Part shown: piece after piece, positions 15,972 to 43,279 of the stretch
Numbering within the stretch: the stretch's first letter is position 1
How the letters are laid out: each line of letters starts with the position of its first letter
DNA from: Geodermatophilus sp. DSM 44513
GTDB lineage: Bacteria; Actinomycetota; Actinomycetes; Mycobacteriales; Geodermatophilaceae
Assembly (NCBI RefSeq): GCF_032460525.1
Contig: NZ_CP135963.1
Span: 4,030,001-4,094,000, forward strand
Length of the DNA stretch: 64,000 nt
Direction of reading: 5' to 3'
Notes under the pieces: model-generated
What the model saw: only the letters and a program-made list of their open reading frames with translations
What the model was told of the DNA's origin: nothing
Databases searched by the model: none
Made by a program: the position numbers and the translations under genes

Positions 15972-16607
15972 CCTGGCCCGGCCCAGAGGCTGACGAACCC
16001 GGCCGGAACATCTAAAGACTGGATCCCCGTCGCCGATCCCACTCGAACGACGTTCCACCAGAAGAACCCGCAACGGCCACGTTCGGGCGGACCGGGCAGC
16101 CAACCACCGGCGTCCCGCGGGGCGATCCCTCAGGGGGACGGTCCTCGAGCAGCCCGCCGATGGCCAGCCGTGTCGACAGCCGATTCCCTGCGGAACGACT
16201 TACGTCGCTGGCGCCACACGGGCCGGGTCCAACGACAGCCGCGACGAGGTGCCCGCGCCAACCCGGTCTCCGCGCAGCGGCCGCGACGTGCGTGGCCGGA
16301 CGCAGCTGGCAGAGCGCACCAATCCCGTGGCGGCCCGCCTCATCCAGGACCTCGGCATCGACCGTGCCCGCCGCGATGCAGGAGGGACGCTGACGCCTCA
16401 GATCCGGCGGATCCTCGGCCCGTGCGGAAGCTACGCCGGCCAGGCGGCCCCTGGCTATGACACCAGAGAATCTCGTCGGACACCGCTAAAGAACCAGACC
16501 GAGGCGGAAACGCGTGCCCAAGCCGTGTCTTCCGGCGCCGACCCGGCAAGATTGCCGTGGAGTGCCGGATCGTACCGGCGGGACGAGAGGGGCCAGACTT
16601 GCCGGTC
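15972..16607. other. Upstream region of the defence-like operon
   Basis: About 600 bases between divergent transcription units. No recognisable gene. One plus-strand frame around 16270-16450 (TQLAERTNPVAARLIQDLGI) looks protein-like but has no recognised domain. The operon promoter should lie in the last 200 bases; no confident -35/-10 pair was found. Confidence 0.4.
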
Positions 16608-26879: not shown

Positions 26880-27711
26880 ATGAGGACCCGGTTCATCACC
26901 GGCGCATCCCGCGGCTTCGGCCGCGAGGTCACGGAGCAGCTCCTGGCCCGCGGCAACCGCGTCGCCGCCACGCTGCGCCGGTCCGAGCAGCTCGCCGACC
27001 TCACCGCGGTGCACGGCGACCGGTTGCGGGTTCGCCGGCTCGACGTCACCGACACCGCCCAGCTGCGGGCCGTGGTTGACGCCGCCTTCGCCGAGCTGGG
27101 ACGGGTCGACGTCGTGGTGTCCAACGTCGGCTACGGGGTGTTCGGCGCGGCCGAGGAGCTCACCGACGACGACCAGATCGACGCACTGCTCGCCACCAAC
27201 CTGACCGCCGCTATCCAGCTGGCGCGGACCGTCGTACCGCACCTGCGCGCCCAGGGCGGCGGGCGGATCCTGCAGGTCTCCAGCATGGGCGCGCACCTCG
27301 GCTTTCCGACCTTCTCGCTCTACCACGCCACCCAATGGGGCATCGAGAGGTTCTACGAGGCTTTCGCCCCCGAAGTGGAGCCCTTCGGCATCCGCACCAC
27401 GCTGGTCGAACCCGGGATGATCCGCACCTCGTTCTACTACGCCGCCGAGCGCACCCCGGTCCACCCGGCCTACGCCGATCACCCGGGGGACGGCCCGCGG
27501 CACGATCCCGGTCGAGAGCATGCCCGGCGACCTGAGCAAGGTCGTCGCAGCCATGATCAACGTTGCGGAGGCCGGCGACCCGCCGCGACGGCTGCTGCTC
27601 GGATCGGACGCCTACCGGCTCGTGCACGCCGCCCCCACCGACCGACTCGCTGCCTACGAGGCGCAGCGCGAGGCGGCGCTGTCCACCGACGTTGACGCCG
27701 CCGCGCGTTGA
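26880..27711 (+). pseudogene. Short-chain dehydrogenase with late frameshift (module 2, SDR-A)
   Basis: ATG 26880 begins MRTRFITGASRGFGREV. The NAG-like motif is SNVGYG and the active site YHATQWGIERFY has Gln in place of the usual Lys of YxxxK. Frame is lost in a run of five G at 27485-27489. The true C-terminus (MPGDLSKVVAAMINVAE to TDVDAAAR) resumes one frame over and ends at 27711. Removing one G restores a protein colinear with the SDR at 2635. The Lys-to-Gln change would be a real loss of function, independent of the frameshift. Confidence 0.8.
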
Positions 27712-27731: not shown

Positions 27732-28587
27732 ATGGGCGGAGAGCGATTCCAGGGCAGGATCGTCGTCGTCACCGGCGCCGCCGGACCCTTCGGCAGCGAG
27801 CTCGTTCGGCGGTTCGCCGTCGAGGGAGCAGGCGTCGTGGCCGGAGCCCGCGGGAAGGACCAGGTCGCCGCGCTGGTCGCCGAGATCGGCGGACAACGCG
27901 CTGTCGCCGCGACGCTTGACGTCACCAGCACCAGCGACTGGGCCAGCACCGTCGCGCTCGCCGAGGACACCTTCGGGCCGGTGTCGGTACTGGTCAACAA
28001 CGCGGCCCGCGCGATCCCCGACACCATCGCGCGGCTCGGCGCCAAGCCGCTGCGTGAGGTGCTCGAGACGAACCTCGTCGGTCCCTGACTCGCCATCCGC
28101 GCCGTCGCGCTGTCCATGCGGAGCGGCGGAGGCAGGTCGAGCGTGAACGTCAACTCGACCGCAGGCCTGGCCGCGGTGCCCCCGCTCGCGACCTACGCGA
28201 CGAGCAAGTGGGCGCTGCACGGGCTGACCCGGACCGCCGCCAGGGAACTCGCGCCCGACCACATCCGGGTCAACGGTTTCCACCCGGCGATCGTGGACAC
28301 TCCCCCTGGCCCACGACGAGGACGGCGAGCTGCACGTCGACATGCACACCGCAGCCATACCCCAGCTCGCCACGGTCCCCGAGGTCTGCACCTACATCCT
28401 CTTCCTCGCCTCCGACGACGCCTCGTTCTCCACCAGTACCGAACTGGTGGCAGACGGCGGCTCGATGCCCGGCCCGGTTCAGCCTGCGCCCTTGCCGCTG
28501 CCACCCTGGCGAGCTCACCGACGTACGCGGAAGAGCAGGCCGTACAGCCCCAACACACGCCGTGCCGGCAGTCGCCCGTACCGCTGA
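27732..28587 (+). pseudogene. Short-chain dehydrogenase with nonsense codon and frameshift (module 2, SDR-B)
   Basis: ATG 27732 begins MGGERFQGRIVVVTGAAGPFG; the glycine motif and SVLVNNAARAI are intact. The frame meets TGA near 28087, then continues LAIRAVALSMRSGG with the catalytic YATSKWAL. A second break is a C run at 28302-28306, after which LAHDEDGELHVDMHT to LVADGGSMPGPV continues. This is the counterpart of the SDR at 3549, so the whole A-B pair is duplicated. At least one lesion (TGA) is not a simple run-length change. Unlikely to be functional. Confidence 0.8.
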
Positions 28588-28941: not shown

Positions 28942-29655
28942 TCAAGGCAAGATGTTGTCTAGGAAGACGGGGCGTACGTAGTGCGTAGAAGCCACTGAGA
29001 CGATGGCATCGTCTACATCCATACGTTGAAGGCGCACTCGTTGATTGTTGTCACTCACATATACCTCACCGGTTGGCTCCGGCGCTGCGCGATGTGCTGC
29101 TTCATGGATCAGGTCCGCTAGCCCTCCGGCACCGACTTTCACGAGCGCCTCGGCGCGCGTAATTGTTTCGATACTCGGATTCGACAGTCCAGACGAGCGC
29201 AGGTCACGAACACGCGGACTACGGGCCGAGGCGAGAACATCTACACCAATACGTCCGGGGCCGACGCCGGCGGCGACGACTCCTTGATCGTGGGACCATG
29301 AGACATCAAAGTTGCTGGGATTAGGGATAGCTGGTCGCCCGTGGCGACCTCCACAGACGTCACAGAGCTGGTGGATCTCGTACTCCGTTGCCGGTGCGCC
29401 ATGGAGAAAGCCCATGAGAAGAAGGCCGACCATGCGAGCCGCGGTGAAGTCGTCGCGATCCTGCTTCCTGACGAGTTGACGGCGGCGCGCTTCGTCGGCT
29501 GGGGGCAACAGGCGGTCGTCGACCGCCTCCAGCACCTCATCGCTTCGCGCAACGACGACGAGGGCGCCGGCCGACGCGCGTCCGAGGCTGTCGCGGCGAT
29601 CACCGAGTCGTCGCAAGCGAGTCGTGGAGTATCGGCTGGCCGAAGACGTACTCAA
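28942..29655 (-). CDS. 4'-phosphopantetheinyl transferase (Sfp-type)
   Basis: 237 residues from TTG 29655; a second TTG near 29616 would reduce the 56-base overlap with the CAR gene. Sfp-family features are CDVCGGRHGRPAI, FDVSWSHDQGVVAAGV, the Mg-binding GRIGVDVLA and, weakly, RAEALVKVGAGG in place of WxxKEAxxK. It would transfer phosphopantetheine from CoA to the carrier domain of the CAR encoded directly upstream, a pairing that most CARs require. The weak last motif may mean a narrow or reduced activity. It is the last gene of the regulator-CAR-PPTase operon. Confidence 0.8.
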   Translation of the reverse strand: MSTSSASRYSTTRLRRLGDRRDSLGRASAGALVVVARSDEVLEAVDDRLLPPADEARRRQLVRKQDRDDFTAARMVGLLLMGFLHGAPATEYEIHQLCDVCGGRHGRPAIPNPSNFDVSWSHDQGVVAAGVGPGRIGVDVLASARSPRVRDLRSSGLSNPSIETITRAEALVKVGAGGLADLIHEAAHRAAPEPTGEVYVSDNNQRVRLQRMDVDDAIVSVASTHYVRPVFLDNILP

Positions 29656-32600
29656 GGTCTTCGACGCACTTCATGAGAAAGGCGGAGGTCAAGCTGGAAA
29701 CCGTGACGCGCGATCCTGTGGCGGACAGTGCGGCGGCAAACTCCGAAGACCCGATGAGGGATCCGTACGACGGTTCCTCTGGTCGCGAGAGACCGTCCAG
29801 CAAGGGAAGCACCGAAGCGCGCTTGTCGTCCTCATCGAAAGCATTCAGCGCGGCGGCGAATCGGTGCATCCAGTCACCGTACGACTCGATTCGAGTCAGC
29901 GGCACACCCATGTCGATGAGCCATTTGACCATCCGGTCCAGGGACACGCCGTCGTCAAACGGATTCACCAGGTGGTACGTGGCGAGCGTCTCCCGCTGAC
30001 GTCTAAGCGTCACCGCAGTGATGGCTTGGGCGACGACGTCGACGGGCAACCCGTCGTAGTGCGCACGGTCACCATCGTGACTATAGAAGGACGAAGGGGC
30101 CAAGCCCGTACGGACCAGGCTGTACAGAAGGCGCGTGAAGGTATCCGGGACGTTGATCTGCCCGCGGTAACTTGAGTGAGCCAGGATCATGCTCGCCCGG
30201 AAGACGGTGACAGGGAGGCCGTAACGCTCGTGGGCATCACGCAGGAGCGCCTCGCCCGCCCACTTCGTGGTGGCGTACCCATCTACGATCCCGCCCGTGG
30301 CCTGGACCTCCGGGAGCGCGCGGCGTATGTCCGAGAGCTCATCGAGCGGTGACGAGGCTCCTGTAAGGAGTGCCGTGGCAATGCTCGACATGAACGTCAT
30401 CGGCTTGAGCGAGTCCGTGACGGCCAGCCGGATGACTTCGGCGGTGCCGCTGACGTTTGCGGCGAAGAGTTCTCGGTAGGGCAATGCGTGATTCACCATC
30501 GCCCCGGCGTGCACGATCTCTGTGAGGTCGCCGGCAAGACGTTCCCAGGTCTGGTCGTCCAGTCCCAGCCGAGCCTCGGAGAGGTCTCCGGCGATCACGT
30601 CGAGGTTGGCGCTGAGTTCGTCGAACTCGGCGAGCAGTGAATCCGACGTTGAGAACGCCTTTCGCAGTCGATCCCGGGCGGCGGCATCATTGCTCGCGCG
30701 GATCAAGCACGCCACGCGATGATCGGTTCCCTCGAACTTGCGCAACCATTCGAGACACAGGAACCGCCCGAGATAGCCGCTCGCTCCGGTGATGAGAACC
30801 GACTTGGCTGCCTGCGGTGCCTCAGACGAGCCCGGCGCGGCCAGGTCATCCTTCATGAACCGTGGGAGCGTGAGATCGGTTGCGTGAAGTCGCTGAGGGT
30901 CCGTGCCGTGGATCTCCTCAAAGGAGGCCGAGTCTCGCCCCGACAGCCGTTTGGCATCGATGTACTCGGCCAGGTCCCGGATGTCATAGGACTCGCTGGC
31001 CACCGTATCGACGGACACGCGGATGCCGTAGATTTGTTCAAGAAGCCGGGACAGGTAGACGGCGGTGAGCGAGTCCCCGCCGAGGTTTCGGAATTTGGCA
31101 GTTTCCGCGATGTCCTCAGGATCGCTCTGAAGCGACACGGCGATTGCGCGGCGCAGGGTCGTGACGGTCTCTTCCTCGGCCCCGTGGGAGCGCAGCCAGT
31201 CAAGTAGCTCGTCACGTCCGGACTGGAGCTGCTGATACAACGTCGCCAGTCGCGGTCCGTATTTCTCCGTCAGGCGGGGGCGCACCAGCTTGCGATGGTC
31301 GGAGAGTAGGCCGTTCGATTCGCTGAACGGTTCGAACTCGACGAGGACCGCGCTCGGGATCTCGTAGGAATTCAGGCTCTCGTCAGCGGCCACCTTTCGG
31401 AACTCGTGCAGTATCCGAGTCTGGATGGCCGCTACGTCGTCGGCGAGTTCGGTGCGCAGCTGGTCCGAGGGGACGGCAACACCCACGATCGATGATTCAT
31501 CGCTTTGACCGTAGAGAAAGGTTTGACGAATGGACTTGCTTCCTGCGATGTATGTGGCTTCCAGCGAGGGTAGGGCGACGAACTCCCCTTGCGAGAGCTT
31601 GATGATGGCATTCTTGCGGTCGATGATCCGTACCCGGCCGTCACTGTCCACCGCCGCTATATCGCCCGTTCGGTAGTATCCGTCGTCGGTGAAGATCTCG
31701 CGATTAAGTTCGGGCTGACTGAAGTAGCCCGGGACCGTTGAGGTGCTCTTGACGAGCAGTTCGCCTCTGGCGTCGGGCCGATCGGAGGTGAAGTACCCGA
31801 GCTCTGGAACGTCCTGGAGCTTGTAGTCGATTACCGGTGGACTCAGGAACCTGCCGTCAGCGAGAACCCCGCCAATCTCGGTTGTCCCGTAAAGTTCGTG
31901 CAGCTCGATTCCGAGCAGGGACTCGATGAAGTTCTTGAGCTCTGCCGAGACGGGGGCGGACGTGCAGCTGGCCCATTGAACATTGCCGCCCAGGATGCCT
32001 TTGCGCATCTCCGCGAGCACGCCCGCCGCATCGGCTTTGCTGTCGACCGCTGTGCTGCCTGAGGGTGTCGCTGTGGCGTGGAGCCGGCGCTGGTACTCCT
32101 GATGGAGGAGTTCGCAGACCCGTGGCACCAAGGACAGTTCTGTTGGCCGAGCGAGGCTGAGATCCTCGAAGAAACTCGATAGGTTCGTCGTCGACGCGAA
32201 GTAGGTCACACCGCCGCGAGCCAGCGTGCTCCTCACCGATGAGTGGCCGGCTACGTGACTCATCGGCATGTAGTGGAAGTTCGCGATGTCAGTCTCCTCC
32301 GCGAAGAACTCCGACCAGCCTTCTCCGCCCCACATCTCTGCGACGAGCCGTTCGGTATACATCGCACCCTTGGGTGTGCCCGTGCTGCCGGAGGTGTACA
32401 TGAGCATGGCGAGGTCATCGTCCTTGCCGTTGTGCGTCAGTCCGGACACGTACTCGCCGTTCTCGATGTCGAGGGTCTCCGGCGAGATCGAGATCTGTTG
32501 GGCAAGCGCTTCGACAGCGCGGCGATGCTCTGGCTCGCCGCCGCGGTAGTCGAGGATGATGAGTCGTTCCACGGTCGGGTGACTCGCGAGCAACCGGGCC

Positions 32601-33019
32601 GCGCGTTCGAGCAGTGCGACGGTGGCTGCCAGAGCGCGGGGCTCCGTTTCCGTGATGATCGCGCTCTGCTGTTCGTGTGTACCGCTGGTCTGCAGCGGAA
32701 CCGTGGTGATGCCTGCGAGATTGCAGGCGAAGTCGACTGTGGTGAAGTCAATGCTGGCGAACCCCAGGAGGGCCACCCGGTCCCCCGGCCGGATCGACGA
32801 GTGGTCCTCGTGCTCCCTGGTCTCACCTTGAAGCTGGGCGGCCACCGATCCGACGCGCTTTCCGAGTGCGCTGTAGGTCAGGGTTTCGTAGGCGTCGAGG
32901 ACGCGACCATCCTTGCGGCGTATCTCTTCGCTGGTGCTCGGGATGGGACGTCGCTCTGCCAACGCGGGACGTTCGGCGAAATGATCGAACGCGGACATCA
33001 TTGTGGACTTGAGGCGCAT
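29600..33019 (-). CDS. car: Carboxylic acid reductase (A-PCP-R, stand-alone)
   Basis: 1139 residues, the usual CAR length. The adenylation domain spans about 1-620 (YTSGSTGTPKGAM near 208-220, then ELYGTTEIGG and YRTGDIAAVDSDGRV). The carrier domain has LGGDSLTAVYLSRLL near 646-660. The reductase domain has LITGASGYLGRFL near 735 and the catalytic YATTKWAGEALL near 912. CARs activate a free acid with ATP, load it on the phosphopantetheine arm and reduce it with NADPH to the aldehyde. The start ATG 33019 follows GGAG nine bases upstream, inside the 3' end of the regulator gene. With phzCDE opposite, DHHA or a derivative is the prime substrate candidate. Confidence 0.92.
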   Translation of the reverse strand: MRLKSTMMSAFDHFAERPALAERRPIPSTSEEIRRKDGRVLDAYETLTYSALGKRVGSVAAQLQGETREHEDHSSIRPGDRVALLGFASIDFTTVDFACNLAGITTVPLQTSGTHEQQSAIITETEPRALAATVALLERAARLLASHPTVERLIILDYRGGEPEHRRAVEALAQQISISPETLDIENGEYVSGLTHNGKDDDLAMLMYTSGSTGTPKGAMYTERLVAEMWGGEGWSEFFAEETDIANFHYMPMSHVAGHSSVRSTLARGGVTYFASTTNLSSFFEDLSLARPTELSLVPRVCELLHQEYQRRLHATATPSGSTAVDSKADAAGVLAEMRKGILGGNVQWASCTSAPVSAELKNFIESLLGIELHELYGTTEIGGVLADGRFLSPPVIDYKLQDVPELGYFTSDRPDARGELLVKSTSTVPGYFSQPELNREIFTDDGYYRTGDIAAVDSDGRVRIIDRKNAIIKLSQGEFVALPSLEATYIAGSKSIRQTFLYGQSDESSIVGVAVPSDQLRTELADDVAAIQTRILHEFRKVAADESLNSYEIPSAVLVEFEPFSESNGLLSDHRKLVRPRLTEKYGPRLATLYQQLQSGRDELLDWLRSHGAEEETVTTLRRAIAVSLQSDPEDIAETAKFRNLGGDSLTAVYLSRLLEQIYGIRVSVDTVASESYDIRDLAEYIDAKRLSGRDSASFEEIHGTDPQRLHATDLTLPRFMKDDLAAPGSSEAPQAAKSVLITGASGYLGRFLCLEWLRKFEGTDHRVACLIRASNDAAARDRLRKAFSTSDSLLAEFDELSANLDVIAGDLSEARLGLDDQTWERLAGDLTEIVHAGAMVNHALPYRELFAANVSGTAEVIRLAVTDSLKPMTFMSSIATALLTGASSPLDELSDIRRALPEVQATGGIVDGYATTKWAGEALLRDAHERYGLPVTVFRASMILAHSSYRGQINVPDTFTRLLYSLVRTGLAPSSFYSHDGDRAHYDGLPVDVVAQAITAVTLRRQRETLATYHLVNPFDDGVSLDRMVKWLIDMGVPLTRIESYGDWMHRFAAALNAFDEDDKRASVLPLLDGLSRPEEPSYGSLIGSSEFAAALSATGSRVTVSSLTSAFLMKCVEDLEYVFGQPILHDSLATTR

Positions 33020-33951
33020 AGGTTAGAACTCCATGGAAGACTGTGGTGATTTGGGACTGTCGAGTTCTGGAAGAGCCACCCACCGCTTGTCGACCGAGGG
33101 ACCTGGTGCACGGAGCTGTTTGGGAGGAGGCTGAGCGCGTCCCGCGTCGCGTCGTCGTTCGGCGTGTAGACCTCAAGGCGATGGTCCGGCGACTCCGGTT
33201 GCAGCCAAACCTGATAGTCGACGTCCAAAGCTCCAAGGGTGGGGTGGGAAAGGACCATGTTGCCGACGGCGCAGTCCGCGACGTCACCTTCGGCCCAGAG
33301 ACTTGCGAAGTCGCTACTCTTCATTGAGAGTTCGCCGATGAGTTCGGCTAATCTCGCGTCACGGGGGTACCGACCGGAGGTCAAGCGGAGATAAGCCACG
33401 TGTACGCGGGCAAGTTCTTCCCAATTGCTGTAAAGGTCGCGCGTTAGGGGGTCGAGGAAGAATGACCTTGGAACCGACGGACGACGATGGATATCCATAG
33501 GCGCTTCGAAAGGGATGTGCTCGAAAAGCAATTCGCGTGCAGAGCGATTCCATGCGAGGATGTCGCCGCGACGGCCCAAGACGACGGCCGGAATAGTCTC
33601 ATGCAGGGATTTGTATAAGGAGAGCACCCGCCGATGGGGTTTTTCGGGGGACTCCCGAATCATTCGCGACGGCGAGTGCGAGTTGGCCAAGTTATACAGG
33701 TGCGTTCGTTCAGCGTCGTCGAGTCTCATGACTGAGGCCAGCGCGTCGAGCACCTGCAGCGACGCAGTCCCGGCCTGGTCCTGCTCGATCCTCGTGTAGT
33801 ACCCGACACTGACTCCGGCAAGACGCGCCAGCTCTTCACGACGCAGACCGGGCACCCGTCGGGGCGCGCTTCCAGAAGCTAGGCCGATCGATGCTGGATT
33901 GGTCTTGTCCCGTCTCGTCTTCAGAAAGCTGCCCAGAGTCTCGCCTTTCAT
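32998..33951 (-). CDS. XRE-family regulator with MmyB-like ligand domain
   Basis: 317 residues from ATG 33951. The N-terminal HTH (VPGLRREELARLAGVSVGYYTRI, then EQDQAGTASLQVLDALA) is typical of the MmyB/MLTR group. The C-terminal PAS-like MmyB domain follows (VLGRRGDILAWNRSARELL, then WEELARVHVAYLRLTSGRYP). Such regulators bind a small molecule, often near biosynthetic or reductase genes. The stop lies 22 bases inside the CAR gene, so the two are coupled. It faces the divergent exporter/phzCDE operon and is the likely pathway-specific regulator of both sides. Confidence 0.9.
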   Translation of the reverse strand: MKGETLGSFLKTRRDKTNPASIGLASGSAPRRVPGLRREELARLAGVSVGYYTRIEQDQAGTASLQVLDALASVMRLDDAERTHLYNLANSHSPSRMIRESPEKPHRRVLSLYKSLHETIPAVVLGRRGDILAWNRSARELLFEHIPFEAPMDIHRRPSVPRSFFLDPLTRDLYSNWEELARVHVAYLRLTSGRYPRDARLAELIGELSMKSSDFASLWAEGDVADCAVGNMVLSHPTLGALDVDYQVWLQPESPDHRLEVYTPNDDATRDALSLLPNSSVHQVPRSTSGGWLFQNSTVPNHHSLPWSSNLCASSPQ

Positions 33952-34116
33952 GTCTCTCACGCTACTCGGACTGGTCGGTCTCTGTAGGGGTGAAGGTATC
34001 CCTGTCAGGTGCACCCAGCGCGAGAGTGTGGACGCGAGGATCTGGCCAGACGACGGGACGACGGGCCTCGTTGCCGAGGATGTCCGCGACGCGAGCGCGG
34101 CCCGCCGGGCACGGCT

Positions 34117-34184
34117 GGGTACACCTCTCGCGGATACCCGCGCGCGTTGTACCCACCGCATGAGTACTCAAGGTTGTGGCCTTG
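34117..34184. promoter_or_regulatory. Divergent promoter region with three symmetric elements
   Basis: Between the regulator and exporter starts lie GGGTACA (34117) facing TGTACCC (34148-34154), the perfect 10-bp palindrome TGAGTACTCA at 34161-34170, and CAAGG-TTGTGG-CCTTG at 34169-34184. The palindrome is the best operator candidate for the MmyB-type regulator. Symmetry is seen; function is inferred. Confidence 0.45.
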
Positions 34185-34216
34185 TTGTGCCCTAGCCGGT
34201 CTCCAAGCATGGGGCC

Positions 34217-35719
34217 ATGGATGTAAATCAGCTGACCAGCAGAGACAAAACCGCCTTCGCTCCACCAAGGTCATGGTGGGGATTAATCGCGACCCTCGGC
34301 CCAGTGCTTGTGGTAGCCATGGACGGATCAATTCTTTTCTTGGCGATGCCGAGCATCGATGAGGCGATCCAGCCCACCACGGACCAGAGCCTTTGGATTC
34401 TCGACATTTACGGCTTCGCCGTGGGCTCGCTGCTCATTACCTTCGGCAATCTGGGCGACCGATTCGGCAGAAAGAGGCTCCTCCTCATCGGCGCCACGGT
34501 CTTCGGCGTGGGATCATTGTGCGGAGCCTTCTCTCCTACTCCTGAACTGCTCATTGCTTCCCGTGCACTGATGGGCCTGGGCGGCGCGACACTGCTGCCC
34601 TCGTGCCTCGCCGTCATCAGTGAATTGTTCGAGAACCCTGCTCAGCGGGCCCGGGCGATCGGGATTTTCGCGGCCACATTCGCCGCGGGGTTTGTGATCG
34701 GGCCGATCGTCGGCGGTGTATTGCTGAATCACTTGTGGTGGGGTTCGGTTTTCCTCATCAACATCCCGGTCATCGTTCTGTTCCTGTGCCTAGCGCCCAT
34801 TCTCCTCAAGGAAGTCCACGGATCTCGGCCGGGAAAGATTGACTTGCTCAGCGTCATCCTGTCCGCCGTGGGTCTCCTCCTCGCGATTTATGGGGTGAAG
34901 CACGCTGCCACCTACGGCCTCGACTGGCTGAGCGCCACGCTGATCGTTGTCGGTGTTTTCATCCTCGCCGTGTTCATCCTTCGGCAGAAGCGCCTGGCGT
35001 TGCCGCTGCTTGATATCGCTCTGTTCAAGGAGCACGTCTTCGCAGTCGCGATCTTGACCGGCCTCCTCTCGCTCTTCGTGTGGTCGGCCGCCGCGTACTT
35101 GAGCATGACCTACCTGCAGTCCGTCCTCGGCTTCTCGGTACTCACCGCTGCGGTCCTCGCGGTCCCGGGCGCGATCATCCTCACGCTCTCCAGCGTGCTG
35201 ACCCCGCGCCTCGTCGAACGAGTAGGCGCTCGGAAGGCGCTGATTATCTGCCACTTTTCCATGGCCATGGGCATGCTGCTGCTTCTCTTCACCAATGAGA
35301 CGACGGGGTCAATCTTCTACATCGCCTCGACCGTGGTAGCCGGCGTGGGATTCGGCATCTCCTTCAGCCTCGTCGCCGATACGGCCGTGGGGGCGGTCCC
35401 TGAGTCGCGCGCCGGTGCCGCTGGCGCGATCGCGGAAACCAGCAACGAGCTCGGCAACGCACTCGGCATCGCCTTGCTCGGATCACTCTTGACCGTGATC
35501 TTTCGCGCCACGTATCCCGGCGATGAGACCGGCATCGGCGAAGTCGTGGACGGGCCTGGCGTGGGATCGGCCGCCTTTGAACAGGCGCAATCCGCGTTCC
35601 TTAACGGATTTCACTCCGTCGCCGCCGTCGCGGCAGTCATCTGCATCGGGCTGGGCATCCTCGCCATCCGATGGATTTACAAGCCTTCCGGGGCGCAGCG
35701 CCAGGCGTCGTCGTCCTGA
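34217..35719 (+). CDS. MFS exporter, DHA2 (14-helix) type
   Basis: 500 residues with about 14 hydrophobic helices. The DHA2 signature features are LPSIDEAIQ-like (MPSIDEAIQPTTDQSLW), GDRFGRKRLLLIG and SRALMGLGGATLLPS. This EmrB/QacA-like group exports drugs and natural products by proton antiport. It is first in the plus-strand unit with phzC, phzD and phzE and shares a divergent promoter region with the pathway regulator, so self-resistance or product export is the likely job. Confidence 0.93.
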   Translation: MDVNQLTSRDKTAFAPPRSWWGLIATLGPVLVVAMDGSILFLAMPSIDEAIQPTTDQSLWILDIYGFAVGSLLITFGNLGDRFGRKRLLLIGATVFGVGSLCGAFSPTPELLIASRALMGLGGATLLPSCLAVISELFENPAQRARAIGIFAATFAAGFVIGPIVGGVLLNHLWWGSVFLINIPVIVLFLCLAPILLKEVHGSRPGKIDLLSVILSAVGLLLAIYGVKHAATYGLDWLSATLIVVGVFILAVFILRQKRLALPLLDIALFKEHVFAVAILTGLLSLFVWSAAAYLSMTYLQSVLGFSVLTAAVLAVPGAIILTLSSVLTPRLVERVGARKALIICHFSMAMGMLLLLFTNETTGSIFYIASTVVAGVGFGISFSLVADTAVGAVPESRAGAAGAIAETSNELGNALGIALLGSLLTVIFRATYPGDETGIGEVVDGPGVGSAAFEQAQSAFLNGFHSVAAVAAVICIGLGILAIRWIYKPSGAQRQASSS

Positions 35720-35818
35720 TCGCGGGCGTGGCAGGCCGCTTGCCGCGCGTTCGCGCACCACACCTCGGTAGCAGGCATCGGAACACGCTCCATCACTTTG
35801 CCACTGGAAGGGGATCAA

Positions 35819-37003
35819 ATGATAAGCATCGACACTGTAAGCAGAGAAGCTTTCGAAGACACGCGACGCGCCATCGGCGCACTCCCGGCACATCAGCAGC
35901 CGATCTGGCGTGACGACGACGCCCGAGACGAGGCAATCTCGTCGCTGGAGCGGTCTGTACCGCTCGTCTCGGAGTCGGAGATCGCCGAGCTCAAGGACAG
36001 CTTGCGGGCCGTCGCGACCGGTAACGCGTTCCTGCTCCAGGCCGGCGATTGCGCCGAGCCGATGACGGACACGTCTTCCAGTGTCGTAGAGAACAAGGCG
36101 CAGGCCCTCGACGTCATGAGCCGGATGCTGGAGCGCAGAACCCACGCCCCGGTGGTGCGCGTCGGCCGCATCGCGGGGCAGTTCGCCAAGCCGCGCTCGC
36201 AGTCGCACGAAACGGTCGGCGGCTCCCTGATCCCGACCTACCGCGGATCACTGGTGAACGATCCGTACCCCTCGGCCAGAGCACGAGTACACGAACCGGA
36301 ACGGCTCGTACGCGCGCGAGCGGCAGCCGAGGTCATCACGCAGCAGCTGCGGTGTAGAGGCGGCGAGAGGATCTGGACAAGTCATGAAGCGCTTGTCCTC
36401 GACTACGAGCTACCGCAGATCCGGCCCACCTCCGACGGGAGGGCCATGTTGAGGTCTGCGCACACGATCTGGGTCGGCGCACGAACGAGCCAGCTCGACC
36501 ACGCCCACGTGGCTCTGGCCGCCAGCATCATCAACCCCGTCGGATGCAAGGTCTCCGCAGGCACCACCCCGGACGACCTGGTCTCCCTCGCGAACGTCAT
36601 CAACCCGAATCGCGAGACCTGCAAGCTGATGCTGATCGCGCGCATGGGCGCATCGGTCGATCGGCTTCCCGCACTGATGAGTGCGGTGAAGCGGGAAGGC
36701 CATCCAGCGATCTGGCTCTGCGACCCGATGCACGGGAACACGCGGACGGCAGCGGACGGGCGGAAGACCCGGTACCTGGAGGCCATCAAGAACGAGCTCA
36801 TGGGGTTCCAGCAGGCCGCTCGTGGCACCGGGGTCATCGCGGGAGGAGCCCACCTGGAGACGACCATCGACGACGTCAAGGAGTGTCTGATCAATGTTCA
36901 GGACGTTCGCGAAGGTCACGACCCGTACACCAGCCTCTGCGATCCGCGCCTGACCATCCGGCAAGCCGTCGAGGTGCTGTCCCACTGGGATAGCGGAGCA
37001 TAA
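35819..37003 (+). CDS. phzC: Class II DAHP synthase (PhzC-like)
   Basis: 394 residues from ATG 35819; AAGGGG lies about seven bases upstream, so the upstream TTG at 35798 was rejected. Class II (plant-type) motifs include LQAGDCAEPMTD, RIAGQFAKPRSQ, SAHTIWVGART and WLCDPMHGNT. It condenses phosphoenolpyruvate with erythrose 4-phosphate to DAHP. Dedicated copies in biosynthetic clusters raise shikimate flux to chorismate. phzD starts two bases after its stop, which means one message and possibly coupled translation. Confidence 0.92.
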   Translation: MISIDTVSREAFEDTRRAIGALPAHQQPIWRDDDARDEAISSLERSVPLVSESEIAELKDSLRAVATGNAFLLQAGDCAEPMTDTSSSVVENKAQALDVMSRMLERRTHAPVVRVGRIAGQFAKPRSQSHETVGGSLIPTYRGSLVNDPYPSARARVHEPERLVRARAAAEVITQQLRCRGGERIWTSHEALVLDYELPQIRPTSDGRAMLRSAHTIWVGARTSQLDHAHVALAASIINPVGCKVSAGTTPDDLVSLANVINPNRETCKLMLIARMGASVDRLPALMSAVKREGHPAIWLCDPMHGNTRTAADGRKTRYLEAIKNELMGFQQAARGTGVIAGGAHLETTIDDVKECLINVQDVREGHDPYTSLCDPRLTIRQAVEVLSHWDSGA

Positions 37004-37005
37004 CC

Positions 37006-37671
37006 ATGGCCAACATCTACTGGGATCAGGCGCAGACCATCCGCTATGACACCCCGCAGCCGCATGAGTATCCCGAGCCGGTCGTTGAGTGGCACGCGTC
37101 GTCAAGCCGGTCCGCACTGCTGGTTCACGACATGCAGCGCTATTTCCTGCAACGCTTCGACGCTCAGAGCCAACCCGCCGCGGACCTCGTCCAGAACATC
37201 GAGCGAGCGATCACGGCGGCTCGCCGACTTGGCATACCGGTCATCTACACGGCTCAACCGGGAAGCATGACTCCCGAACAGCGTGGGCTCCTGAAGGACT
37301 TCTGGGGCCCGGGAATGGCCGTGTCACCCGAACACCGCCGTGTCGTGGACCGTCTCGCGCCGAGCTCTGCGGACCTGGTGCTAGACAAATGGCGCTACTC
37401 AGCGTTCGCCCGATCCCCGCTGGGAGATCACCTCCGAAGCATCGACAGGGACCAGCTCGTCATCTGTGGCATCTACGCACACGTCGGTGTGCTCGCCACG
37501 GCGCTCGACTCATACACAAGGGACATCGAAACCTTCGTACTCGCCGATGCCGTCGCGGATTTCGACCGCACGCAGCATCTCAGCGCGCTCGAGTACATAG
37601 CCCGCACATCCGCGCGGGTGGTCCCCACTGCAACGATCCTCAACGAATGGGAACATGGCGATGAAGGCTAA
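37006..37671 (+). CDS. phzD: Isochorismatase-family ADIC hydrolase (PhzD-like)
   Basis: 221 residues. The catalytic Asp lies in ALLVHDMQRYFL (about residue 42), Lys in LDKWRYSAF (about 128), and the nucleophile position is GIYAHVG (155-161), where PhzD enzymes lack the cysteine of classical isochorismatase-type hydrolases. The family hydrolyses the enol-pyruvyl ether of 2-amino-2-deoxyisochorismate to give DHHA plus pyruvate. All catalytic features match PhzD rather than EntB. It overlaps phzE by 17 bases. Confidence 0.92.
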   Translation: MANIYWDQAQTIRYDTPQPHEYPEPVVEWHASSSRSALLVHDMQRYFLQRFDAQSQPAADLVQNIERAITAARRLGIPVIYTAQPGSMTPEQRGLLKDFWGPGMAVSPEHRRVVDRLAPSSADLVLDKWRYSAFARSPLGDHLRSIDRDQLVICGIYAHVGVLATALDSYTRDIETFVLADAVADFDRTQHLSALEYIARTSARVVPTATILNEWEHGDEG

Positions 37672-39424
37672 TCGGAACGATTCATTCGCGCTGATCATGA
37701 AGAGCGGCGTCGTACATTACTACGCCGGCGAATCCGCCCTCTTCGACGACCTCGAACAAGCACAAGCCGAATCCGATGAACTGATCCTCGCGGTTCCGTT
37801 CCGCCAAGCACTCTGGGGCGATCGGCCCATGTCCGGTCCGGAACGCTCAGCGCGCCGGCACGTGTCCGCAATCCGCGTACGCGACCACGAAGAGTCGACC
37901 GTCGACGAGTTCCTTCAGGCGGGAGAGGCGACGCCGACCCGGCTTGTTGACGGACACTTCGACGTCGACGATGACGAGTATGCGCAGCGAGTCCGCGCCG
38001 TTGTACACAACGAGATCCGGGCCGGCCATGGCTCCAACTTCGTGCTGCACCGCACGTACAGAGGCCGGATCACGTCTCGGGACGCGGAGACAGAAATGTC
38101 GATCTATCGTTCCCTGCTCCGCGTTGAAGCAGGGTCCTACTGGACGTTCCTGATCCACTTCCCGGACCACAGCCTGATCGGCGCCAGTCCCGAGATGCAC
38201 CTGCGACGCAGCACCGACGGGCTGACGACCATGAACCCGATCTCGGGAACTTACCGATATCCGAACGGCGGGCCCGACGAGCGCTCCCTGCGGGACTTTC
38301 TCCAGAACCCCAAAGAGCGGAACGAGCTTTACATGGTCGCTGATGAAGAGCTGAAGATAATGTCCGACCTGTGCGACGAACGACCCTGGATCTCTGAGCC
38401 GAACCTGCGGTTCATGTCCAACCTCGCTCATACCGAGTACTTCATCCACGGTTATAGCTCACTCCCGTGGACTGCCGCTCTGCACCGCTCCCTCGTCGCC
38501 CCCACGGTCCTTGGTAGCCCGCTCGAATCTGCGTTCCGCATGGCCCAACGGAACGACTTGAGTCCGCGAAACTACCTGGGCGGGGTACTGGCACACGTTG
38601 CAGAAGGCACCGACCTGAGCTTCGACTCCGCCATCCTCATTCGAACGGCCCTAGTCGAAACCACCGGCGAAGTCTCAATCCCGGTCGGATCGACGATCGT
38701 CAGAGACTCCGACCCAGCCCTTGAAGCAGCCGAGACAATCGCGAAAGCGTCTGGAGTGCTGGCAGCATTCTCCCGCCGGAACGACGACGCGCTTCGTTCC
38801 ATGGCGAACGAGCTCCTGGAGCAAAGGGCGAACGACGTAGCTGAGTTCTGGATGATGCAGACCGATCACCACGCTCTTGACGGCGTGATCCCGAAGGAAC
38901 TCAACGCGCTGGTCGTTGACCACGAGGATCGCTTCACCGGCATGCTCGCCGCTCACCTAAAGTCCTTAGGACTCAACGTGTCCGTGATCACCGAGAGTCC
39001 AACGCTGGAGCAACTCGCGAACGTTCACCTACTCGTCCTCGGCCCAGGACCCGGAGACCCGAACGATGAGTCCGATCCACGGATCGCGTCCGCGCGGGAA
39101 CTGGCCCGGTGGGTGGTTGAGACACGAAAGATCCCCACTCTCGCCGTATGTCTCTCTCATCAGCTGATCTGCCGAGAACTCGGCCTCGACGTCAGGCGCC
39201 TCCCGCGGCCAAACCAGGGAAGCCAAAGGAACATATCGCTCTTCGGTGATGCCGTGCGTGTCGGTTTCTACAACTCATTCAGCGCATACATTGACGGGGC
39301 GAGCAATCCTGGACTGGACGTGGCATACGACGATGCCACGATGGAAGTCTATGCGGTGAAAACAGACGGCATTGTCGGACTACAGTTCCACCCGGAGTCA
39401 ATCCTGAGCGTTGACGGGGCCTAG
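37655..39424 (+). CDS. phzE: Anthranilate-synthase-like ADIC synthase fused to glutaminase (PhzE-like)
   Basis: 589 residues. The chorismate-binding half has SPEMHLRR, PISGTYRYP, and SPRNYLGGVLA; the C-terminal class I glutamine amidotransferase has GPGPGDP, LAVCLSHQL (Cys near 498) and LQFHPESILS (His/Glu near 579-581). PhzE turns chorismate and glutamine-derived ammonia into ADIC. The gene ends at TAG 39422-39424 where homologues continue. A further 16 sense codons, starting VLRKSVLSLLSK, remain in frame to a TGA at 39473. So a CAG-to-TAG change probably trimmed the last helix. All catalytic residues are kept. Confidence 0.92.
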   Translation: MAMKANRNDSFALIMKSGVVHYYAGESALFDDLEQAQAESDELILAVPFRQALWGDRPMSGPERSARRHVSAIRVRDHEESTVDEFLQAGEATPTRLVDGHFDVDDDEYAQRVRAVVHNEIRAGHGSNFVLHRTYRGRITSRDAETEMSIYRSLLRVEAGSYWTFLIHFPDHSLIGASPEMHLRRSTDGLTTMNPISGTYRYPNGGPDERSLRDFLQNPKERNELYMVADEELKIMSDLCDERPWISEPNLRFMSNLAHTEYFIHGYSSLPWTAALHRSLVAPTVLGSPLESAFRMAQRNDLSPRNYLGGVLAHVAEGTDLSFDSAILIRTALVETTGEVSIPVGSTIVRDSDPALEAAETIAKASGVLAAFSRRNDDALRSMANELLEQRANDVAEFWMMQTDHHALDGVIPKELNALVVDHEDRFTGMLAAHLKSLGLNVSVITESPTLEQLANVHLLVLGPGPGDPNDESDPRIASARELARWVVETRKIPTLAVCLSHQLICRELGLDVRRLPRPNQGSQRNISLFGDAVRVGFYNSFSAYIDGASNPGLDVAYDDATMEVYAVKTDGIVGLQFHPESILSVDGA

Positions 39425-39499
39425 GTGCTGCGGAAGTCGGTCCTCTCGCTGCTGTCGAAGACGACTTGCTCATGAATCCGGATGGCCCGAGATCAGCTC

Positions 39500-39524
39500 C
39501 AAGACGATGCCTGGCATCGTCTTG
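39500..39524 (+). terminator. Hairpin after phzE
   Basis: CAAGACGATGC and GCATCGTCTTG form a perfect 11-pair stem with a CTG loop, about 25 bases past the in-frame TGA that would end a read-through phzE. No T tract follows, as is common for terminators in high-GC genomes. It probably closes the exporter-phzCDE unit. Confidence 0.6.
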
Positions 39525-39755
39525 ATCGAATGGCGCACCGGCGAGGAGCCCCCCTTGCAGCTGTCATAATGGGAGGGAGCATCAACAGCAAAACGGCCGA
39601 GGATGAGACCCGACCCAGCCAGTATGGGCAGCTTTCGACGCGCCGGGACGTCGATAAGCCGGTCCGCTCAGTTGAAAGGGCCGTTCCAAGACACACCCGA
39701 AGCGACACGCGTCAATCAGCAGCTTTGACGCGCTCCCGGGAGCCACCCTCACTGG

Positions 39756-40076
39756 GTGACCCCAGAGCGGCTTCCTATCGGACCACACCCACCGCGGCAA
39801 TCCGTCGAGAACCACAAAGCACTTGTCGACCAGTTCCGACGCATGGCCCTCTATCTGGAGACGGCCGCGGTGCTCGAGCAACAGGCCAAACGATGTCAGT
39901 CCAGCGCTGGCAGTGTGCTCCTGTGCGAGTGCGCCCAACAGTGCCGCAGGGAGGCCGCCCGCATCCGGGACTGCCTGGCTGCACAGGGTGTGACACTGAG
40001 CCATCTCCCGCAGCCGGCCGTAAGGCACCGTCACGTCAACCCGGAGCCCGGTTCACTCGCTGCGGCAGATCAGTGA
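39756..40076 (+). CDS. Hypothetical protein, cysteine-bearing helical
   Basis: Up to 106 residues from GTG 39756. The core (HKALVDQFRRMALYLETAAV, LLCECAQQCRREAARIRDCL) is amphipathic helix with four Cys, which looks like genuine protein rather than shadow. The N-terminal 15 residues and the start are uncertain and no ribosome site was found. No family recognised. It lies between phzE and lsr2 with no clear partner. Confidence 0.4.
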   Translation: MTPERLPIGPHPPRQSVENHKALVDQFRRMALYLETAAVLEQQAKRCQSSAGSVLLCECAQQCRREAARIRDCLAAQGVTLSHLPQPAVRHRHVNPEPGSLAAADQ

Positions 40077-40203
40077 AGGCCGCGGGACCAGACGTTTGAC
40101 CTGTTCACAGGGCCCAAGGCACCCCATGGAGCCGCCGCCCTTGCCGGGTTAACGCGCAGTGGGCTCCCGGACCACAGAGACCGGCCTACCGCTGACCGTC
40201 TGC

Positions 40204-40536
40204 TCAGTTAGCGGCTTCGTAGGCCTCGATGACGCTGCCCGGCACGCGACCCCGCTCCGAGACGGCAAGTCCGTTCTCTCGTGCCCAGGCGCGGATTGCG
40301 GCGGTGTCTCTCCCACTGCGCCCCCCACGACGAGCGAACTTGGCCGTCCGCCCCACCTTCCGAGCGGCCCCGACGTAACGATTGACGGCCTGACGCAAAG
40401 CGTCGGCATTGTCCCTGCTGAGGTCGATCTCATACGACGTACCGTCCAAGGCAAAGCTGACCGTCTGCGCCTGACCATCCGGCAAGGGTTCACCGGTGAG
40501 GTCGTCCACGACCACGACCTGCATCTTCTGTGCCAT
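40204..40536 (-). CDS. lsr2: Lsr2 nucleoid-associated silencer
   Basis: 110 residues. The N-terminal dimerisation part is MAQKMQVVVVDDLTGE and the C-terminal DNA-binding part is AIRAWARENGLAVSERGRVP, ending SVIEAYEAAN. The RGR element (usual form RGR-I/V-P) inserts into the minor groove of AT-rich DNA. Lsr2 is the actinobacterial H-NS counterpart and silences acquired AT-richer genes. Here it stands about 0.7 kb from the lower-GC biosynthetic block, which makes it a plausible silencer of that block. It may be a second copy rather than the housekeeping one. Confidence 0.93.
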   Translation of the reverse strand: MAQKMQVVVVDDLTGEPLPDGQAQTVSFALDGTSYEIDLSRDNADALRQAVNRYVGAARKVGRTAKFARRGGRSGRDTAAIRAWARENGLAVSERGRVPGSVIEAYEAAN

Positions 40537-41591: not shown

Positions 41592-42209
41592 ATGAGCGAG
41601 GTTTTCAGCTGGCAGTCCCCCAGCTCCTGGCTCGTCCTCAACGCCGTGCTCGACACCTTGGCCGAACTGGGCTGCGCCGGCCTGACCACGGATGAGGTCA
41701 AGCTCCGCGCCGGAGCCGCCGGTCCCGGCCTCGGGGACTCCCCCGACCTCGACGCCCTGGTGATCATCGCCCTTGAGCGGGTGCAGCTGTTCCCGGCGCC
41801 CGAGCCGACGGGAGATCTCGCGCAGGATCTCCGCACCCTGCTGGAGCCGTGGCGCACCGCGCCGAGCAGGGAGGAGCGCGTCGTGGCCGCGGTCTTGAGC
41901 GCCGCGATCTGGAGTGCGCGGCTGAAGGTCGCGGTCCATGAATCACTCGACCGACCCTTGATGCACGCCGTCTCCGCGGTCGTCGCGCGCGCCGGCGCGC
42001 ACGGGCACATTCCGGACCACGCTGTCCAGACCCTGTGCTGGCTTCTGCGCGGCCTGTTGCTCGACCGGCTGCGTTCCCGCCCCCGGACGGCGATCGACAT
42101 CGACCGCCTCGTCGACTTCCTGGTCGCCGGACTGCAGACCAAGGCGGCAGTCACGGTCCATGCGCGGCCCCCACTGGTCGGCGAGCCGCTGACGGAGACG
42201 CCGGTGTGA
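41592..42209 (+). CDS. TetR-like protein with degenerate HTH, coupled to fliG
   Basis: 205 residues. The opening VLNAVLDTLAELGCAGLTTDEV resembles a TetR HTH, but the turn and recognition helix (KLRAGAAGPGLGD) are not the canonical T-x-Y-x-x-F form, so DNA binding may be lost. The later part (TLLEPWRTAPSREERVVAAV, then LKVAVHESLDRPLMHAVSAV) is a TetR C-terminal helical domain. The stop overlaps the GTG of FliG (GTGA), which is tight coupling. A regulator joined to a motor protein gene is unusual. Confidence 0.7.
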   Translation: MSEVFSWQSPSSWLVLNAVLDTLAELGCAGLTTDEVKLRAGAAGPGLGDSPDLDALVIIALERVQLFPAPEPTGDLAQDLRTLLEPWRTAPSREERVVAAVLSAAIWSARLKVAVHESLDRPLMHAVSAVVARAGAHGHIPDHAVQTLCWLLRGLLLDRLRSRPRTAIDIDRLVDFLVAGLQTKAAVTVHARPPLVGEPLTETPV

Positions 42210-43279
42210 CCGTGGCAGACGTCACGGAGGTGCCAGAGCAGGTCGCGCTGCCACCCCTCTCAGCGACACCTCGGCCGTCGCAGAGAACATCCGGTCTGCG
42301 CAAGGCGGCGCTCTTCCTCGCACAGATGAGCACGGAGGAGGCCGGTCAGATCGTCGCCCACCTGCGGCCGTGGGACGTCGAGATGCTGACCGCCGAACTG
42401 GTGCAGCTCGGCGCCGCGGAGTCCGCCGAGATCGACGACGTCATGCACGAACTCCACGCGCTGCTACGGGGCGGTCAGCTGTACCGCAGCGGCGGTGAGG
42501 AGTTCACCCGCGAGATCCTCGCGGCCGGCTTCGGCAGCGTGCGCGCCGACGAGCTGCTGGCCCGGGTGAACGCCGCCTACACCGAAATGCCGTTCGCCTC
42601 GCTAGGCAATGCCGACGTCCGCCAGCTGGCCACCTTCCTCAAAGACGAGCACCCCCAGGTCATCGCGCTGGTCCTGGCACACCTGAGCGCCGCCCAGGCG
42701 GTCGAGATCCTGTCGGTATTCCTGCCCGACCAGCAGGCCGCGGTCGCGCACCGCGTCGCCGCCATGGACCGCACCTCGCCGGAGATGGTCCGCCTCGTCG
42801 AGGACGAGCTCAGCCGCCGGATGGGCTCCCTGCTGCACGAGGACATGACCACCGCCGGCGGCGTGGACGCCCTGGTGGAGATCATCAACCGCTCACCGCG
42901 GCCCACCGAGCGCTCCATCCTCGAATGGCTGGACAACACCGACCCGGAACTGGCCGCGCAGGTGCGCGATCAGATGTTCCTCTTCGAGGACATCGTCACC
43001 ATCGACGACCGGTCCCTGCAGCAGGTGCTGCGGGAGGTCGAAGTCAACGACCTAGCCACCGCGCTGAAGGGTGCCCGGCCCGACGTCCGCCACAAAGTGA
43101 TCCGCAACCTCTCTCAGCGCGCCGCCGAGAACCTGGCCGAGGAGCTCGAGCTGCTCGGCCCGGTCCGCGCCCGCACGGTCGAGGAGGCCCAGATCGAGGT
43201 TGTCGGCATCATCCGTGGAATGGAAGCCTCGGGCGTGCTGACCATCAACCGCGGAGGTGATGAGGAATTGATCTGTTGA
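42206..43279 (+). CDS. fliG: Flagellar motor switch protein FliG
   Basis: 357 residues from GTG 42206. It has the three FliG domains: N-terminal (LRKAALFLAQMSTEEAGQI), the middle ARM-M domain with the EHPQ motif (LKDEHPQVIALVLAHL), and the C-terminal torque domain (LFEDIVTIDDRSLQQVLREV, then KVIRNLSQRAAENL). FliG couples MotA/B ion flow to rotor torque and binds FliM and FliF. No other flagellar gene is nearby. FliG is usually in a flagellar operon, so this is either a second copy or one displaced from its cluster. A GGDEF-EAL gene follows 208 bases later. Confidence 0.93.
   Translation: MTVADVTEVPEQVALPPLSATPRPSQRTSGLRKAALFLAQMSTEEAGQIVAHLRPWDVEMLTAELVQLGAAESAEIDDVMHELHALLRGGQLYRSGGEEFTREILAAGFGSVRADELLARVNAAYTEMPFASLGNADVRQLATFLKDEHPQVIALVLAHLSAAQAVEILSVFLPDQQAAVAHRVAAMDRTSPEMVRLVEDELSRRMGSLLHEDMTTAGGVDALVEIINRSPRPTERSILEWLDNTDPELAAQVRDQMFLFEDIVTIDDRSLQQVLREVEVNDLATALKGARPDVRHKVIRNLSQRAAENLAEELELLGPVRARTVEEAQIEVVGIIRGMEASGVLTINRGGDEELIC

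Follow-up and report, generated by a model that had tools for sequence, protein, structure and literature searches.

What would a bacterium make from a gene cassette that possesses the trunk of the phenazine pathway and, next to it, a carboxylic acid reductase (CAR)? Such a cassette lies in Geodermatophilus sp. DSM 44513, where we analyzed a window of 64,000 nucleotides (contig NZ_CP135963.1, positions 4,030,001 to 4,094,000, renumbered here from 1). Seven genes were confirmed at window positions 28,942-39,424, encoding a phosphopantetheinyl transferase (PPTase), the CAR, an MmyB-type regulator, a major facilitator superfamily (MFS) exporter, PhzC, PhzD and PhzE. Judged from the sequences, PhzC, PhzD and PhzE would make 2,3-dihydro-3-hydroxyanthranilic acid (DHHA), and the activated CAR would reduce it to an amino-hydroxy-cyclohexadiene aldehyde that is exported or reacts further. 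We regard this as probable, though well short of certain. The best explanation for the cassette is a small self-contained biosynthetic unit, moving horizontally, that forms a reductive branch off the phenazine trunk. The features, with the evidence for each, are as follows.

28942..29655, minus strand: divergent Sfp/AASDHPPT-type PPTase (weak PF01648 homologues, invariant D139/E169/K173, AlphaFold and Foldseek)
29600..33019, minus strand: CAR with adenylation, peptidyl carrier and reductase domains (A-PCP-R), 1139 aa (Pfam; 5msc, E 7e-290; H255/E479/S650/Y915/K919)
32998..33951, minus strand: MmyB-type regulator, HTH_31 and MLTR_LBD (Pfam; start kept in three genera)
33952..34216, no strand: divergent promoter region with a candidate operator (alignment of three genera)
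34217..35719, plus strand: MFS exporter, DHA2 type (Pfam, NCBIfam)
35819..37003, plus strand: phzC, class-II 3-deoxy-D-arabino-heptulosonate 7-phosphate (DAHP) synthase (PF01474, E 8e-114)
37006..37671, plus strand: phzD, hydrolase of 2-amino-2-desoxyisochorismate (ADIC), isochorismatase family (PhzD structure 1nf9, E 1e-59)
37655..39424, plus strand: phzE, ADIC synthase, chorismate-binding and amidotransferase (PhzE structure 3r74, E 4e-112, residues 37-588)

An earlier note on this DNA had named phzC, phzD, phzE, an exporter, an MmyB-type regulator, a CAR and a PPTase, and Pfam domains and solved relatives place all of them there. The genes form two divergent operons, regulator-CAR-PPTase on the minus strand and MFS-phzC-phzD-phzE (34,217-39,424) on the plus strand. 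All seven are open and recognizable, and key residues are intact in the CAR, the PPTase and PhzD. The end of the CAR gene, at its stop, overlaps the TTG start of the PPTase gene, the CAR start overlaps the regulator gene by 22 nt, and phzD and phzE overlap; a shorter PPTase from a GTG start at 29535 is possible. The host genome consists of one contig of 4,628,844 bases, in which the cassette occupies an island of low GC content (60-66% at 29-40 kb, as against 68-73% on either side and 67% at the 40-41 kb edge).

PhzC feeds the shikimate pathway, PhzE converts chorismate to ADIC, and PhzD converts ADIC to DHHA. The window PhzC is a class-II DAHP synthase with a probable ATG start at 35819. In PhzD, D42 and K128 align with D38 and K122 of its closest solved relative, 1nf9, and the aligned GIYAHVGV segment carries Gly where the wider family has its nucleophilic Cys; we take Asp38 and Lys122 to be the catalytic residues of PhzD, and this Gly to be its usual state. 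PhzE has a chorismate-binding domain followed by an amidotransferase domain and is closest to the PhzE structure 3r74. The host genome holds one full-length PhzE match, and four others are partial, with 29-34% identity. In the limazepine pathway, Lim6 and Lim5 make DHHA in vitro (PMC5958127). The part of that paper available to us reports no sign in the sequence of why PhzE stops at ADIC, unlike anthranilate synthase. Thus, our assignment of PhzE to ADIC, not anthranilate, leans on the adjoining PhzD.

The CAR contains AMP-binding, PP-binding and NAD_binding_4 domains, that is, the A-PCP-R architecture, and aligns with 5msc over residues 2-1124. For NcCAR, the available part of one report gives His237, Glu433, Ser595, Tyr844 and Lys848 as essential (PMC5826065). 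All five are present as H255, E479 (LSQGEF), S650, Y915 and K919 (GYATTKWAGE), matched by motif and not by a joint alignment with NcCAR. This is the only CAR match in the host genome at E 1e-30. Among viral contigs, no CAR relative was detected.

The small protein encoded behind the CAR matched neither Pfam nor NCBIfam at E 0.001. A protein search returned 21 proteins including its own; seven weaker ones carry PF01648, and one of these, from Leifsonia aquatica, is named 4'-phosphopantetheinyl transferase. D139, E169 and K173 are invariant across 22 aligned sequences, and we take them to be the Asp, Glu and Lys of PPTases that bind Mg and CoA. The AlphaFold model (mean predicted local distance difference test 80.6, predicted template modeling score 0.78) was searched with Foldseek, and the 50 listed PDB matches were all PPTases or AcpS, with a best E of 1e-8 and a TM-score of about 0.5; human AASDHPPT, Sfp and mycobacterial PPTases (2cg5, 4mrt, PptT) came first. 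The namesake partner of AASDHPPT is likewise an A-PCP reductase-type enzyme. From the PF01648 homologues, the invariant residues and the predicted fold, we identify the protein as a divergent PPTase. Two side observations concern its family: the proteins P0248-P0258 form a divergent PPTase family with no precomputed Pfam domain, and two positions after the first Asp, the close PPTases have Leu (GVDVL), P0258 has Gln and others have Glu.

Is this gene set more than one local arrangement? The earlier note had suggested searching actinobacterial genomes for PhzE together with a CAR. Plasmid pE5100 of Pseudarthrobacter sp. NamE5 (L002) carries all seven genes in the same order, with identities of 50% for PPTase, 74% for CAR, 81% for the regulator, 83% for MFS, 67% for PhzC, 81% for PhzD and 76% for PhzE. 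Microbacterium sp. TNHR37B (L003) carries six of the seven. There, the regulator, MFS and PhzCDE stand in the window order, the CAR (62% identity) lies downstream of phzE, and a canonical Sfp-type PPTase stands at the other end, beside the regulator. BLASTP shows no detectable relation between that PPTase and the window's (E 4.5); the cassette retained a PPTase though the protein was exchanged. The earlier note's pairing of a CAR with a PPTase holds, and in each of the three loci the regulator gene and the phz operon are transcribed divergently. Its recurrence in two further genera, Pseudarthrobacter and (with the other PPTase) Microbacterium, means that the gene set is not a chance one. By Pfam content, the scanned open reading frames (ORFs) in the flanks, which were not compared all-against-all, held no further gene common to the three loci. 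The Microbacterium ORF at 15439-16701 was rejected as a cluster gene, as the opposite strand encodes an ISL3 transposase. Separately, an acyl-CoA dehydrogenase, a cytochrome P450 and a PNPOx-like protein (below the cut-off) adjoin the PPTase at 308-5184 of the same locus and are possible local tailoring genes.

Among the best 120 of 3412 PhzE proteins, 21 including the window's show at least 62% identity, the next shows 53% (Micromonospora sp. NPDC057141), and the rest at most 47%; named close members are from Pseudarthrobacter, Oerskovia paurometabola and Brevibacterium casei. The CAR list breaks less sharply, running to 56%, then 50% (Micromonospora sp. NPDC057141) and 48% (best 120 of 3794). 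Where a PhzE and a CAR come from contigs of equal size, we infer a single contig. On this basis, apart from the window's own, seven close-clade contigs appear to hold both genes among the matches listed: the Pseudarthrobacter plasmid (227930) and six further ones (12959, 17472, 13925, 15163, 13555 and 8862). Outside the close clade, contigs of Micromonospora (110404) and Nocardia noduli (34785) were matched by size likewise, and two more PhzE contig sizes, 14384 and 21754, recur among the PPTase relatives. In the plasmid collection, 214 records had a PhzE match and 1014 a CAR-like match, and none was in both among the matches listed (30 each).

The two proteins also diverged together. Identity matrices of PhzE and CAR correlated with r 0.84 over nine close pairs and r 0.92 over twelve pairs (the window's own, the Microbacterium locus, the seven matched contigs, Micromonospora, N. 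noduli and genome G353), with a permutation P of 5e-5 for both sets, the lowest value that 20,000 permutations can give. A tree of 120 CARs, rooted at the midpoint, unites the close CARs that have a PhzE link in a single clade with a support of 1.0; this clade comprises 18 rows for 17 distinct proteins, that of NamE5 being present twice. The CARs of Micromonospora, N. noduli and G353 lie outside it and are not grouped together. On these sequences, the linkage may have arisen several times, CARs may have been exchanged, or some remote pairs may be chance neighbors.

PhzE by itself is common in the order and the class. In the window's family, it was matched at E 1e-40 in 6 of 112 genomes; no genome of the host's genus other than the host is among them, and in the remaining five PhzE is 39-44% identical. 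Across the order, 93 of 397 genomes have PhzE at E 1e-100 and 57 have CAR at E 1e-250; four have both (the host, G123, G353 and G404, from lists compared by eye), and the genes adjoin in the host and G353. Of 394 genomes in the class, 113 have PhzE (E 1e-90), ten have CAR (E 1e-270), and only the host has both. No CAR was present in 38 other PhzE neighborhoods of up to 20 kb, mostly the best-scoring ones and a few of them cut by contig ends (18 of 22 in the genus of G166, presumably Nocardia; 17 of 105 in the order; and 3 of 126 in the class). Likewise, no PhzE was present in the two CAR neighborhoods examined (L092, L093) in the genus of G126, presumably Micromonospora, in which 3 of 146 genomes have CAR genes.

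In G353 (presumably of the Pseudonocardiaceae; L051/L052, C1:2640000-2675000), the minus strand carries phzC, phzD and phzE and, about 4 kb on, the CAR. Like the window, the region combines phzC, phzD, phzE and a CAR, here on one strand within 8 kb, with an MFS gene near by. The region differs in having a PucR-type regulator on the opposite strand between phzE and CAR, a methyltransferase and an S-adenosylmethionine synthetase directly behind the CAR, and a CAR of another lineage (48-50% identical). On the phzC side are a transposase, an acyl-CoA-dehydrogenase-like flavoprotein, a MarR regulator and the MFS gene, 25% identical to the window's. No PPTase was seen, and there was no phzF, phzB or phzG among the scanned ORFs. 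The PhzE of G353 is 63% identical to that of N. noduli, whereas the CARs of the two share only 52%. Perhaps, G353 has a second aldehyde-type DHHA cluster.

Does the cassette lead to a phenazine? As the earlier note had claimed, the late genes are missing near by: neither phzF nor phzB, nor phzG above the cut-off, was found among the ORFs scanned around the three cassettes. The note had also raised the prospect of phzF or phzG just outside the cluster; the only PhzF-family protein of the host genome is encoded at 1.03 Mb, unlinked and 3 Mb from the cassette. PhzF-family matches occur in 11 of 14 control genomes and also in E. coli. A PHZA_PHZB search gave no match in the host genome, but none in the 14 control genomes either. 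Since the late genes are missing, we do not regard the locus as a phenazine cluster.

A dehydrogenase acting on DHHA (a short-chain dehydrogenase/reductase, SDR, like Lim4 or EntA) was likewise absent from the set shared by the three genera, as judged from the ORFs scanned. In the host genome, nothing scored above the TIGR04316 cut-off, which 2 of the 14 control genomes passed; 52 SDR matches lie below it, the best with 148.7 of 300 bits. DHHA is thus the only acid that the cassette itself makes. Two SDR ORFs beside the island, 26880-27695 (intact) and 27762-28301 (with an in-frame stop), were considered as the cluster dehydrogenase and rejected; both lie in the high-GC flank, and no SDR-type neighbor was seen among the ORFs scanned beside the Pseudarthrobacter and Microbacterium loci. 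The ORF at 27762-28301, at the left edge of the island, has one in-frame TGA and is probably a decayed flank gene.

The regulator possesses MLTR_LBD and HTH_31 domains and is 81% identical to those of the other two cassettes. Its start is probably 33951, not 34161, as that ATG is kept in three genera. The 265-bp gap between regulator and exporter keeps blocks in the three genera with one or two changes each. On the regulator side they read, in window letters, GGTATCCC-N5-GGTGCACCC, and toward the exporter GGTACACC-N6-GGATACCC. These conserved blocks are a candidate operator. The count of GGTNNACC with one mismatch is weak against shuffled sequences, being reached by 94 of 1000 shuffles for the window, 5 of 1000 for NamE5 and 148 of 1000 for Microbacterium, and elsewhere in the window single 265-bp stretches contain as many as 8 matches, compared with 4 in the promoter region. 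The exporter is an MFS_1 protein, 83% identical in both other cassettes, and its best NCBIfam scores (LfrA, QepA, SmvA) are all below the cut-offs.

From these genes, we propose the following route. PhzC would raise the shikimate flux, PhzE would convert chorismate to ADIC, and PhzD would release DHHA, following the known chemistry of the families. The CAR, armed by the cassette PPTase, would adenylate the DHHA carboxylate with ATP, load it onto the carrier domain and release the aldehyde with NADPH, predicted to be (5S,6S)-6-amino-5-hydroxycyclohexa-1,3-diene-1-carbaldehyde. By chemical reasoning, this could lose water to give 2-aminobenzaldehyde, lose ammonia to give 3-hydroxybenzaldehyde, or condense with itself to a dimer. 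The MFS protein would export the aldehyde or its follow-on product, and the MmyB-type regulator would control both divergent operons. That PhzE and PhzD keep the ring hydroxyl, although TrpE supplies anthranilate, speaks for a product that needs it. More tentatively, and with rather less chance of being right, the CAR would take the place of PhzF, PhzB and PhzG, the DHHA aldehyde giving an undescribed class of exported product. Head-to-tail condensation of amine and aldehyde would then form an eight-membered dinitrogen ring, as against the six-membered ring of phenazines; aromatization would give 2-aminobenzaldehyde or 3-hydroxybenzaldehyde. On this reading, the CARs of other lineages that stand near phzCDE in other genomes, one with a methyltransferase beside it, would suggest more than one origin of such a pathway.

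Several points weigh against the reduction of DHHA by the CAR. The CAR substrate is a prediction from sequence. The pocket residues have no clear DHHA signature and do not separate DHHA from other acids, and the pocket positions match those of ordinary Streptomyces CARs. Three positions, T353, E375 and G383, set the close CARs apart. Of these, E375 occurs in 25 of 25 close rows (the window's, L002, L003 and P0128-P0149, including two fragments, one protein twice and a Myceligenerans group outside the 18-row clade) and in 1 of 96 others, P0156, a fragment with 62% identity. In an alignment with PheA, a phenylalanine-adenylating domain, E375 presumably may face adenine rather than the acid. None of the three more distant CARs with a PhzE link (Micromonospora, N. 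noduli and G353) has E375, and the Myceligenerans CARs, the nearest outside ones, share it and have no length-matched PhzE contig among the matches listed. Against NCBIfam NF041592, the CAR scores 1228.8 bits over residues 2-1124, under the naming cut-off of 1300, which is a rule for naming and not for mechanism; the next family scores 292 bits. A CAR partner is visible for 8 of the 21 close PhzE proteins, the window's included, and for the other 13 none was found among the matches listed, in which each cluster is represented by its longest contig and three of the 13 contigs are below 6.2 kb. In Microbacterium, the last ~37 CAR residues are unaligned and an ISL3 transposase gene overlaps the 3' end, so that this copy may be clipped. 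The proposed phosphopantetheinylation of the CAR and the export role of the MFS protein both draw on gene neighborhood, and one of the 52 below-cut-off SDRs could oxidize DHHA to 3-hydroxyanthranilate.

This last point leads to a different substrate. A host SDR might aromatize DHHA, as proposed for Lim4, and the CAR would then reduce 3-hydroxyanthranilate or anthranilate, yielding 2-amino-3-hydroxybenzaldehyde. Aromatic acids are the usual CAR substrates, the genome offers its 52 SDR matches, and a chorismate/DHHA route to 3-hydroxyanthranilate is known (PMC5958127, from the part available). However, the shared set has no dehydrogenase gene among the ORFs scanned, and the genome has no EntA-type protein above the cut-off. 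As no DHHA dehydrogenase accompanies the cassette, we favor DHHA over 3-hydroxyanthranilate as the CAR substrate and hold this route to be quite unlikely. A general-looking pocket, the different lineages of the other PhzE-linked CARs, and nearest outside CARs with no visible PhzE link among the matches listed would also suit a CAR and PPTase that use an acid made elsewhere, with DHHA a separate end product or a co-substrate joined to the aldehyde, for example as an imine or ester. We consider this unlikely, given how tightly PhzE and CAR are inherited together within the close clade, the overlap of the CAR and regulator genes, and the divergence of the regulator from the phz operon in all three loci.

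An ordinary phenazine cluster whose late genes (phzF, phzB and phzG) lie elsewhere in the genome, with the CAR decorating a phenazine carboxylate, is very improbable. PhzG belongs to the PNPOx superfamily, and a PNPOx_N match of 21.7 bits, weak against a cut-off of 28.1, lies beside the Microbacterium cassette; the PhzF-family protein at 1.03 Mb would be the other candidate. That family is common among the control genomes, though, PHZA_PHZB gave no match (a search in which the controls gave none either), and the ORFs around the three cassettes held no late gene as defined above. Finally, the host is the only PhzE-bearing genome of its genus (E 1e-40), which would fit genes that arrived together in one insertion and became chance neighbors with no common pathway. 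The same gene set in three genera and the co-divergence of PhzE and CAR strongly disfavor this, and we give it hardly any credence. Because the gene set is conserved across genera, a dedicated reductive branch is likely, and this part of the earlier note's product claim stands; its DHHA aldehyde remains the probable reading set out above, on which the CAR pocket does not discriminate.

Other observations concern the surroundings. The left neighbors of the island include SDRs and regulators, and the right neighbors include TetR and FliG. The ORF at 39482-40099 was rejected as a gene, having no Pfam or NCBIfam family and low GC at third codon positions, and degraded extra copies of the cassette genes, sought in the flanks, were rejected with a best protein match of E 0.08. 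A 23-base stretch of the phzC end (36943-36965) is repeated at 40464-40486, right of phzE, with 96% identity and no longer match around it. Scans of the window for tRNA genes and Rfam families gave no match, nor did PADLOC with six of the seven cassette proteins (MFS left out). An AbiEii-type nucleotidyltransferase (22855-23781, minus strand) and an AbiEi-like antitoxin ORF (23778-24350) are a probable type IV toxin-antitoxin pair. FliG, with all three domains, is encoded at 42035-43279, just right of the island and beside an EAL/GGDEF protein.

If the proposed route is right, the phenazine trunk has a reductive exit that leads to an aldehyde-level product. CARs tend to handle ortho-amino acids poorly; here, the operon would define such an acid as the natural substrate, and the enzyme would be useful for biocatalysis. 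The cassette comprises only seven genes, fits one expression construct and moves between genera. It would also be a false positive in screens for phenazine producers based on phzE, a gene used as their marker (PMC3111181, in the part available).

How does the cassette compare with known systems? It shares PhzC, PhzD and PhzE (solved relatives 3r74 and 1nf9) with the phenazine core operon phzA/B-C-D-E-F-G, and differs from it in having a CAR and PPTase, with no phzF, phzB or phzG found near by. In grixazone biosynthesis, the aryl acid reductase GriC/GriD converts an in-cluster amino-hydroxy-aromatic acid to the aldehyde, with a different acid and different genes from those here. To our knowledge, characterized CARs have not been described as phz-linked; 5msc and 5msp are those of Nocardia iowensis and Segniliparus rugosus. 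The window CAR has the same full-length A-PCP-R order and the five essential residues named in the available part of PMC5826065, whereas it falls into a separate, PhzE-linked clade. For the lentzeacin pyrazines of Lentzea, a CAR-like monomodular enzyme was proposed to release amino-aldehydes that condense with themselves; its substrates are amino acids, and phzCDE are not mentioned in the part of the paper available (PMC8658869). A Brevibacterium comparison describes, in its available part, only ordinary phzGFEDCB clusters (PMC5719810). Among the papers listed in searches of the open-access PMC literature, covered partly by titles and the beginnings of abstracts, none showed a cluster pairing phzCDE with a CAR, and the earlier note's statement that none is known provisionally stands: the phzCDE-CAR cluster is, so far as that literature goes, undescribed. 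A precedent is limazepine, in which a DAHP synthase, an ADIC synthase and an ADIC hydrolase (among Lim3-Lim6) also feed a non-phenazine product; there, a dehydrogenase is proposed to supply 3-hydroxyanthranilate to a nonribosomal peptide synthetase, whereas the cassette has neither and possesses a stand-alone CAR. Tilivalline is presumed to use the same chorismate/DHHA pathway (both from the available part of PMC5958127). Thus, we provisionally conclude that the phzCDE-CAR cassette joins this chorismate/DHHA type of cluster as a variant new to the literature.

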